Part shown: one piece after another, positions 24,374 through 39,268 of the stretch | Layout: every line of letters starts with the position of its first letter | Numbering within the stretch: position 1 is the stretch's first letter | DNA from: Thiogranum sp. | GTDB lineage: Bacteria; Pseudomonadota; Gammaproteobacteria; DSM-19610 | NCBI GenBank assembly: GCA_030148775.1 | Contig: JASBST010000108.1 | Location: 62,001 to 126,000, forward strand | DNA: 64,000 nucleotides | Reading direction: 5' to 3' | Position numbers and translations under genes: made by a program | The notes under the pieces: model-generated | Databases searched by the model: none | What the model was told of the DNA's origin: nothing | The model's input: the letters and a program-made list of their open reading frames with translations, nothing else

Positions 24374-25489
24374 TCACGGCGTCTCCACCAGCGTTACGCC
24401 CTGAAGCGCGTTACCGGCATCGACCTCGTTGTCTTTCAGTTTGATCATCAGGCGCACTTCGTTGGCCGAATCGGCGTAATGGATGGCGTCTTCCTGAGTG
24501 ATTTCGCCGTCGCGATAGAGCTCGTAAAGCGCCTGGTCGAAGGTCTTCATGCCCTGCTGGTTGGAGCGTTTCATCAGATCCTTGATCTTGTGGATCTCGC
24601 CCTTGCGTATCAGATCCGCCATCAGCGGCGTATTGATCAGCACTTCGACCACCACCCGCCGGCCCTTGCCGTCCGGCGTCGGCACCAGTTGCTGCGCGAC
24701 GATCGCCTTCAGGTTCAGCGACAAATCCATCAACAACTGATCGCGGCGATCTTCGGGAAAGAAGTTGATCATGCGGTCCATCGCCTGGTTGGCGTTGTTG
24801 GCGTGCAGCGTGGCAAGACACAGATGGCCGGTTTCGGAGAAAACAATGGCGTGATCCATGGTTTCCCGGGTACGGATCTCGCCGATCAGAATGACGTCCG
24901 GAGCCTGGCGCAGAGTGTTTTTCAGCGCCACATCGAAAGACTCGGTATCGATACCGACTTCGCGCTGGGTGACGATACAACCCGCGTGCTGGTAGACGAA
25001 CTCGATCGGATCCTCGATGGTGATAATGTGTCCGGTGCTGTTGTGGTTGCGATAACCGATCATCGATGCCAACGAGGTGGATTTACCGGTGCCGGTGGCG
25101 CCGACGAAGATGATCAGTCCGCGCTTGGTCATCGCCAGGTTCTTGATGATCGGCGGCAAATTGAGCGAATCGACGGTTGGAATCTGAGTTTCGATTCGGC
25201 GCAGCACCATACCGCAGTGATTACGCTGGTAAAACGCGCTGACGCGAAAGCGCCCCACGCCCGTCGCGCTGATCGCGAAGTTGCATTCGTGTTCTTTTTC
25301 GAACGTCTTGCGCTGATCGGCCGTCATCACCCCGAACACGGTCTCGCGCACCTGCTCGGGGGTCAAGGAAGACTGCGTAACCGGCTTGATGCGGCCGTTG
25401 ACTTTCATGCTCGGCGGCATGCCCGCGGTAATAAACAGATCGGATGCGCCCTTGTGGACCATCATTTTCAGTAGCGAATTAAAATCCAT
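24374..25489 (-). CDS. pilU: Twitching motility ATPase PilU
   Basis: A hexameric secretion ATPase that assists PilT in pilus retraction. The 371-residue protein has Walker A VGATGTGKSTSLASM, the Asp box IITIEDPIEFVYQH, Walker B VILIGEIRTRETM and the His box FSETGHLCLATLHANN. It starts MDFNSLLKMMVHKGASDL, typical of PilU. It lies 13 nt after pilT on the same strand. Its 3' end faces pyrK across an 18-nt gap with no terminator visible. Confidence 0.96.
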   Translation of the reverse strand: MDFNSLLKMMVHKGASDLFITAGMPPSMKVNGRIKPVTQSSLTPEQVRETVFGVMTADQRKTFEKEHECNFAISATGVGRFRVSAFYQRNHCGMVLRRIETQIPTVDSLNLPPIIKNLAMTKRGLIIFVGATGTGKSTSLASMIGYRNHNSTGHIITIEDPIEFVYQHAGCIVTQREVGIDTESFDVALKNTLRQAPDVILIGEIRTRETMDHAIVFSETGHLCLATLHANNANQAMDRMINFFPEDRRDQLLMDLSLNLKAIVAQQLVPTPDGKGRRVVVEVLINTPLMADLIRKGEIHKIKDLMKRSNQQGMKTFDQALYELYRDGEITQEDAIHYADSANEVRLMIKLKDNEVDAGNALQGVTLVETP

Positions 25490-25502: not shown

Positions 25503-26540
25503 TCAGCGGAACAATTCTTTATTCATGGCTTTGGCTCTGGCGTCGATGCGATTGACCAGACCACGTCCGACCAGATCCTGCAGGTTCTGGTCCAGCGTCT
25601 GCATGCCGACGGCCTGCCTGGTCTGGATCGCCGAATACATCTGTGCCACCTTGTCCTCGCGGATAAGGTTACGGATAGCCGGCGTTCCGATCATGATTTC
25701 GTGCGCCGCGATTCTCCCGCCACCGGTTTTTTTCAACAACGTCTGGGAAATGACCGCGCGCAACGACTCCGACAGCATGGAGCGCACCATGGTCTTCTCG
25801 GCCGCGGGGAACACGTCGATGATACGGTCGATGGTCTTGGCCGCCGAGCTGGTGTGCAACGTGCCGAACACCAAGTGACCGGTTTCGGCGGCGGTCAGCG
25901 CCAGCCGTATGGTTTCCAGATCACGCATTTCGCCCACCAGAATGATATCGGGATCTTCGCGCAGCGCCGAGCGCAAGGCTTCGTTGAAACCATGGGTATC
26001 ACGATGGACCTCACGCTGATTGACCAGACACTTCTTGCTCTCGTGCACGAACTCAATCGGGTCCTCTATGGTCAGGATGTGCTCGAAGCGCTCGTTATTG
26101 ACATGATCCATCATTGCCGCCAGCGTGGTGGACTTGCCCGAGCCGGTCGGACCGGTGACCAGCACGATGCCGCGCGGCTGATCGGCGATATCCTTGAAGA
26201 TCTTCGGACAGCCGAGTTCTTCCAGCGTCAGTATGGTGGAGGGGATGGTACGAAAAACGCCACCGGCACCGCGGTTGTGGTTGAAAGCGTTGACGCGGAA
26301 GCGCGCGAGATTGGGGATCTCAAAAGAGAAATCGGTTTCCAGGAACTCTTCGTAATCCTTGCGCTGCTTGTCGTTCATGATGTCGTAAATGAGGCCATGA
26401 ACGGTTTTGTGATCCAGTGCCGGCACATTGATGCGGCGGATGTCGCCGTCGACCCGGATCATCGGCGGCAGGCCGGCCGATATATGCAGGTCGGAGGCGT
26501 TGTTTTTCACGCTGAAGGCGAGTAACTCGGCAATATCCAT
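25503..26540 (-). CDS. pilT: Type IV pilus retraction ATPase PilT
   Basis: The main motor for pilus depolymerisation, acting at the inner membrane. The 345-residue protein has Walker A TGPTGSGKSTTLAAM, the Asp box LTIEDPIEFVHES, Walker B IILVGEMRDLETI, the His box AETGHLVFGTLHTSSA and the retraction-specific AIRNLIRE near residue 270. It leads the pilT-pilU pair. Divergent proC lies 211 nt away. In Pseudomonas a yggS-type gene sits between pilT and proC; it is missing here. Confidence 0.97.
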   Translation of the reverse strand: MDIAELLAFSVKNNASDLHISAGLPPMIRVDGDIRRINVPALDHKTVHGLIYDIMNDKQRKDYEEFLETDFSFEIPNLARFRVNAFNHNRGAGGVFRTIPSTILTLEELGCPKIFKDIADQPRGIVLVTGPTGSGKSTTLAAMMDHVNNERFEHILTIEDPIEFVHESKKCLVNQREVHRDTHGFNEALRSALREDPDIILVGEMRDLETIRLALTAAETGHLVFGTLHTSSAAKTIDRIIDVFPAAEKTMVRSMLSESLRAVISQTLLKKTGGGRIAAHEIMIGTPAIRNLIREDKVAQMYSAIQTRQAVGMQTLDQNLQDLVGRGLVNRIDARAKAMNKELFR

Positions 26541-34389: not shown

Positions 34390-35145
34390 TCACCCCGCCA
34401 TCAGCTTGACCCCGATCACCAATGTCAGCAGCTCGAAGGCTCGTTTAATCCAGCGATTGCCCTTCTTGATCGCCAGGTGTGCCCCCATATATCCGCCGAG
34501 GAGGGAGCCGGCCAGGAGGGCGGGCACCCATTCCCAGCGGATCTCGGCCAGCAGGCCCAGGGTCAGCGCGCCGGTTCCGTTCCAAAAGATGCCGACCAGA
34601 ACCAAGGTATAGGCGACCGCACGCCGGTAGTCGAGGCCGAACCAGCGCACCAGCCACAAGGTCACGAACAGCCCGGTCCCGGAGGTCAACGAACCGTTCA
34701 GCACACCGATAACGAACAGCACCAGCCCGCCGACAGCGAAACCCGCGGAATCGCGGTGAATGACGACTTCGTCATGCCCCAAGCCGGGGTTGAGCCACGA
34801 GTATAATCCGAGACCGGCGGTGAGCACGCCCAGAGCGATTTCGGCATTGCGGCCCGGGATGTCGACGATCAGCAGTGCTCCCAGCAGCACTCCCGGCAAG
34901 CCGCTTACAAGTATAAACAGGGAAAGCTTTTTCTCCAGCCCGCCTTCGCTCAAGTGACGCACCGTGGCGCCGATACCCAAGGCGACACTGGCGACTTTGT
35001 GGGTAGCCAGCGCGACCACGAAGGGCAGCCCCAGAAAGATCAGTGCCGGCAGCTGGATAAGGCCGGCACCACCGCCGGAAAACGCCGAAAGCACGTTGGC
35101 CGCCAGTGAAATGATGAACAGCAGCAGTTGATCGATGAGCTCCAT
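34390..35145 (-). CDS. TSUP (TauE/SafE) family sulfite/organic anion permease
   Basis: A 251-residue membrane protein with about eight TM segments and the TSUP N-terminal pattern FSGGGAGLIQLPALIFLGLP followed by ATHKVASVALGIG. The second half repeats it as GVLNGSLTSGTGLFVTLWLVRWFGLDYRRA. TSUP members export sulfite, sulfonates or other anions; the substrate cannot be told. The ATG at 35145 is used; the TTG at 35154 would add three residues. It is convergent with pyrE (8 nt apart) and divergent from the DUF4124 gene. Confidence 0.87.
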   Translation of the reverse strand: MELIDQLLLFIISLAANVLSAFSGGGAGLIQLPALIFLGLPFVVALATHKVASVALGIGATVRHLSEGGLEKKLSLFILVSGLPGVLLGALLIVDIPGRNAEIALGVLTAGLGLYSWLNPGLGHDEVVIHRDSAGFAVGGLVLFVIGVLNGSLTSGTGLFVTLWLVRWFGLDYRRAVAYTLVLVGIFWNGTGALTLGLLAEIRWEWVPALLAGSLLGGYMGAHLAIKKGNRWIKRAFELLTLVIGVKLMAG

Positions 35146-35179
35146 CGCTGACAAAGTACCCTAGATCAATCGTGACGCC

Positions 35180-35506
35180 ATGAAAACACGCAATCTCTAC
35201 ACAAAGCTGGTCCTGGGCGCCCTGATCGCCGCCAGCGCCGCCGGCGCCCACGCCGGCAAACTCTATAAATGGGTGGATGAAAACGGCCGCGTACGTTACG
35301 GCGACAGCATTCCCCCGCAATATGCCGACAAGAGCAACCAAACGCTCAACGACCAGGGTGTGGTGGTGGATCGCAAACCGGCGGCAAAGACCCCCGAACA
35401 GTTGGCCGAAGAAGCGCGCCTCAAGGCAGCCGCCGAAGAGGCCGAACGTATTCGACGGGAGAAAGCCTATCAGGATCGCATCCTGCTGGACACCTTCACC
35501 AACTAA
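35180..35506 (+). CDS. DUF4124 domain protein, N-terminal part of a split gene
   Basis: A 108-residue exported protein. A signal peptide (about residues 1-25, ending AGAHA) precedes the DUF4124 motif KLYKWVDENGRVRYGDSIPP, then a charged coiled-coil-like stretch (PEQLAEEARLKAAAEEAERIRREKAYQDR). The frame stops at a TAA (35504-35506) after DTFTN, but the same frame reopens at once and reads DEMVMTRDGK. From memory, family members with this start run on through such a sequence. I infer that this is a truncated or interrupted gene, perhaps by one G-to-T change in a GAA codon. Confidence 0.8.
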   Translation: MKTRNLYTKLVLGALIAASAAGAHAGKLYKWVDENGRVRYGDSIPPQYADKSNQTLNDQGVVVDRKPAAKTPEQLAEEARLKAAAEEAERIRREKAYQDRILLDTFTN

Positions 35507-35818
35507 GACGAAATGGTCATGACCCGGGATGGCAAGATACAGGCCATCGAAGCGGTCATCCGCGTGACCAACGGCCGCAGCGGAAAACTCAAACAGCGGC
35601 TGGTGGAGCTGAAACGCCGCGCCGCCAATCTGGAGCGGGCCGGACGACAAGTACCGCAAAGCCTCATCGGCGAAATCGAAGACTCACGCCAACAGATCGA
35701 AAAAAACCGCGTCTATGTGGAAAACCGCCGCGCCGAGCAGGACAAGATTCGGGCCAAGTTCGAAGCCGACATCCGTCGCTTTCGCGAACTGAAAACCGCC
35801 GCGGCCGCCGGAAAATGA
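35507..35818 (+). pseudogene. C-terminal remnant of the split DUF4124 gene
   Basis: This stretch is in the same reading frame as the upstream DUF4124 gene and follows its TAA without any gap or shift. The sequence is a long charged helix, likely a coiled coil (LKQRLVELKRRAANLERAGRQ, then IGEIEDSRQQIEKN and EQDKIRAKFEADIRRFRELK). It has a possible ATG at 35513 but no Shine-Dalgarno. As a free-standing 101-residue protein it would lack a signal peptide, though its parent is exported. It is best read as the second half of one 212-residue protein. Confidence 0.75.
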
Positions 35819-35819
35819 A

Positions 35820-39268
<3,449 letters not shown>

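Follow-up and report, generated by a model that had tools for sequence, protein, structure and literature searches.

A single in-frame TAA in a DUF4124 gene of Thiogranum sp., probably a recent nonsense mutation

A gene encoding a small, presumably envelope-located DUF4124 protein in Thiogranum sp., a marine sulphur-type bacterium, is interrupted by one in-frame TAA; the frame is intact on both sides of this stop and the relatives examined carry the gene in full-length form. We conclude that the stop is probably a recent nonsense mutation—a strain allele or a very young pseudogene—in a full-length, single-copy gene. A Glu codon would have changed to TAA in the lineage of this genome or in the strain population that was sequenced; the base is presumably real, the product would be truncated and its function may be lost or reduced. 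The gene lies in the window (the whole stretch of 64,000 nucleotides that was analysed), which is part of contig C108. Within the named collection, the source genome is closest to MAGs labelled Thiogranum and Thiohalobacter.

Translation of the window places the TAA at 35504-35506 within the frame 35180-35818, such that 108 residues precede the stop, 103 residues follow in the same frame and a TGA (35816-35818) ends the gene. The N-terminal half matches DUF4124 (PF13511) with 44.2 bits, above the Pfam gathering cut-off of 22 bits. These results confirm the original prediction, made from the letters of the DNA, of a DUF4124 gene split by a single in-frame TAA without a shift, and neither the translation nor the homologue alignment revealed a frameshift or multiple lesions. 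In the truncated open reading frame (ORF), the DUF4124 domain spans residues 17-74 (Pfam) and the probable signal peptide, judged by eye, spans about residues 1-25. Matches to the HmpF, Casc1_N and Kbp-5 families fell below their respective cut-offs and look like coiled-coil noise. The only match to the gene in its own genome was the gene itself, and thus no second copy was found.

Table 1 The interrupted DUF4124 gene, its parts and its immediate neighbours in the window
Feature	Position	Strand	Basis
TauE/SafE-type permease gene, divergent, upstream of the DUF4124 gene	34390..35154	-	
DUF4124 gene, full frame of 212 codons with one TAA inside	35180..35818	+	Translation, Pfam, homologues
Truncated ORF, 108 aa: probable signal peptide, DUF4124 domain, first long helix	35180..35506	+	
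In-frame TAA; Glu codon in 64 of 92 homologues at the same column	35504..35506	+	Alignment
Remaining in-phase frame, predicted helical C-terminal half	35507..35818	+	Translation, alignment, model
Possible restart ORF, 101 aa, ATG six bases past the stop, without a good ribosome-binding site	35513..35818	+	
argB, acetylglutamate kinase, convergent; true start perhaps downstream of the listed one	35820..36827	-	

The gene order around the stop is xthA, pyrE, a TauE-like permease gene, DUF4124, argB and algC (we assigned the names xthA, algC, dut and coaBC from the sequences, without a family search). Genomic context was counted for 77 of the 78 named loci with the gene, L090 having been missed in that search. 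An argB gene is close by at 36 of the 70 loci that have room for it, and the commonest single pattern, found at 19 loci, is xthA-pyrE-DUF4124 without a detected argB. Taken together, the neighbour patterns across the 77 loci indicate that the DUF4124 locus is conserved. Two large ORFs were noted on the same contig: one of 850 aa (window 36716-39268, minus strand), in which a long membrane-type N-terminal part precedes a phosphomannomutase-like (AlgC-type) part named by eye, and a very long one of 3417 aa outside the window near the contig end (G000:C108:9065-19318, minus strand).

A search of relatives found a match to the DUF4124 gene in 40 of 56 genomes, the source genome included, and no match outside the source genome contained a stop. 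Of the other 19 genomes in the family, 18 gave a match, in each case free of internal stops (G008, which is 82% complete, gave no match; G019, among the 18, is cut by a contig end). For the alignment, 107 loci gave 106 hits (L031, which had no hit in the alignment search, was dropped) and 92 distinct sequences, with 14 loci being exact duplicates. All 92 run continuously over the TAA column, without a stop anywhere in the match, and no sequence terminates at that column. Viral contigs were also scanned, and no relative turned up.

The residue at the stop column is Glu in 64 of the 92 homologues, Ala in 9, Asp in 6, Val in 4, Pro in 4, Ser in 2 and Gln, Ile and Thr in 1 each, and the column sits within the conserved stretch LLDTFTNEDEM. 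Glu is encoded by 44 GAA and 20 GAG codons, which makes GAA the commonest codon at this place (44/92), and all 17 of the nearest sequences have Glu. The stop is thus most simply explained by one base substitution in a codon for Glu, as originally proposed. The nearest named homologue, L033 (JASBSS010000024.1, from a Thiogranum/Thiohalobacter-type MAG), is a full-length DUF4124 (PF13511) protein that shares 85% protein identity, length, domain layout and gene order along the contig with the window gene, but has Glu at the column in place of the stop.

A model of L033 built from 44 sequences (mean pLDDT 85.3, pTM 0.59) comprises a short helix at the N terminus, a less confidently predicted part that contains strands, and three long helices at residues 71-104, 108-152 and 159-210, the last two of which fit the coiled-coil end that had been predicted. 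In this model the stop coincides with the beginning of the second long helix. Translation would be expected to end at residue 108; the resulting exported protein would retain its DUF4124 domain together with one long helix, the first, and lack both long helices of the C-terminal half. The L033 model had no fold match in the PDB at E ≤ 0.001. One subgroup of homologues (loci L043-L045, L047, L050-L052, L054-L059, L061, L062, L064 and L075) is longer, at about 316-344 residues against about 200-240, and the extension is probably C-terminal.

How old the stop may be was judged against the nearest relative in the relatives search, G005, at 86% identity. In the aligned frame, identity to this relative is 86% after the stop and 81% before it, and the differences are concentrated at third codon positions on both sides alike; the frame after the stop is therefore more than chance. 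The dN/dS relative to G005 is 0.117 before the stop and 0.112 after it, and the C-half dN values to two outgroups are similar for the window and G005 (0.176 versus 0.164, and 0.212 versus 0.213). With dS between the window and G005 near 0.7, a C half free of constraint over the whole branch would be expected to have gained tens of replacements, but the two C halves differ by only 17.5. Equal purifying selection on both halves suggests either that the stop arose long after the two species diverged or that it is not real. The absence of decay after the stop likewise points to a recent event. A pseudogene is marked by a frame that is disrupted relative to intact homologues, which we observed, and by loss of constraint after the stop, of which the dN/dS values give no sign; the gene is thus at most a very young pseudogene.

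Polarised changes on the window branch were 9 synonymous and 0 replacement in the N half and 3 and 4 in the C half; on the G005 branch they were 8 and 4 in the N half and 11 and 3 in the C half. These counts are too small to tell whether, on the branch leading to the window, selection past the stop was relaxed or maintained, and a one-sided exact value of about 0.02, calculated by hand and post hoc on 16 changes, was given little weight. An apparent excess of window-only replacements in the C half was not upheld: by hand count, the window has 6 unique residues there and its nearest relative 5, almost all of them at positions where relatives also differ from one another.

The main rival to a recent nonsense mutation is an assembly artefact, either a wrong consensus base or a strain chimera, in which case the cell would have a full-length gene. 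We consider this considerably less probable. The assembly consists of 111 contigs and is 86.7% complete with 2.28% contamination, and an error would predict the lack of decay that is seen on either side of the stop. The DUF4124 gene is also the only interrupted gene found across the roughly 122 kb of gene order shared with G005 (82.8% nucleotide identity). A first listing gave stops in 21 of 108 ORFs of the relative; 100 ORFs, holding 34,243 aligned codons, have third-position bias, and 14 of these bear stops. In 7 of the 14 the stops are confined to an N-terminal region that is weakly conserved or over-extended, 6 are shadows over longer open frames and 1 is the DUF4124 gene (this sorting is our own reading, and the remaining ORFs of the 21 were judged by eye to be in the wrong frame). 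Widespread gene interruption, through poor assembly or a changed code, was rejected, as 13 of the 14 stop-bearing ORFs are explained otherwise. Against a consensus error, few of all random base errors would create a stop, the gene has no frameshift or other mark of poor sequence, and young nonsense alleles are reported to be common in real bacterial genomes (PMC7918605), although the comparison of rates is ours.

It is unlikely that the gene still works, either through useful readthrough of the TAA or through a restart at the ATG six bases on that yields two polypeptides. Beyond the stop the frame stays open and under purifying selection, and in-frame ATGs occur at distances of 6 and 12 bases from it. 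However, the stop is absent from all relatives examined, and thus shows no sign of having been selected for; conservation between species at the same place, as expected of a recoded stop, was found in 0 of the 92 homologues. TAA is regarded as a tight stop, and it serves as a terminator in this genome: among the 79 conserved gene ends that passed the identity and end filters, TGA occurs at 47, TAA at 19 and TAG at 13. All 26 tRNA genes found in the 86.7% complete genome have sense anticodons, with no suppressor tRNA among them, though one may lie in the missing part of the genome. As for a restart, the ATG has a match of at most 4 bases to the anti-SD complement (the annotated start does no better) and the product would have no signal peptide. 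A leaky TAA or restart that gives mainly the short exported DUF4124 protein, together with a minor long or separate coiled-coil product, is very doubtful; if true, it would reduce the amount of full protein as a short-term measure. Least credible of all is the reading as two natural genes, one for a short DUF4124 protein and the other for an independent coiled-coil protein. Each ORF is open and can be listed by itself, but homologues that end at the stop, with the second half as its own gene, were looked for among the relatives, the family and the 92 aligned sequences and were not found, and we reject this reading within the homologues examined. Recent mutation or polymorphism and consensus error stay from the four options first offered, and stop readthrough found no positive evidence.

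Whether a recent nonsense mutation or an assembly error, this case would be an ordinary event. In-frame nonsense changes in bacteria are described as widespread and as mostly short-lived, at the level of polymorphism within populations (Belinky et al. 2021, PMC7918605). Literature searches on readthrough and on Thiogranum yielded no other paper drawn on here. The window gene resembles the stops of that study in having a single, young stop with purifying selection around it; the study as described kept stops common to at least two species, whereas the stop here is in a single genome. A characterised DUF4124 protein, TfpC of Neisseria gonorrhoeae, has a coiled coil at its C terminus and is reported to be needed to keep type IV pili; it has in common with the window gene the DUF4124 label, a signal sequence and a charged helical C terminus (PMC7593972). 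What links the two is the DUF4124 label and, according to the TfpC paper, the number of DUF4124 proteins that are true orthologues is not known (PMC7593972). Elsewhere in the window are two adjacent genes for PilT/PilU-family ATPases (24377-25489 and 25507-26540, minus strand), to which nothing ties the DUF4124 gene; their proteins are unusually conserved, being 98.7% and 99.1% identical to those of G005 against a regional nucleotide identity of about 83%.

Should the TAA prove to be an error, annotation as a full-length gene would be correct. If the base is real, it adds one more young nonsense allele, and suggests that loss of the C-terminal helices may be tolerated for a time.
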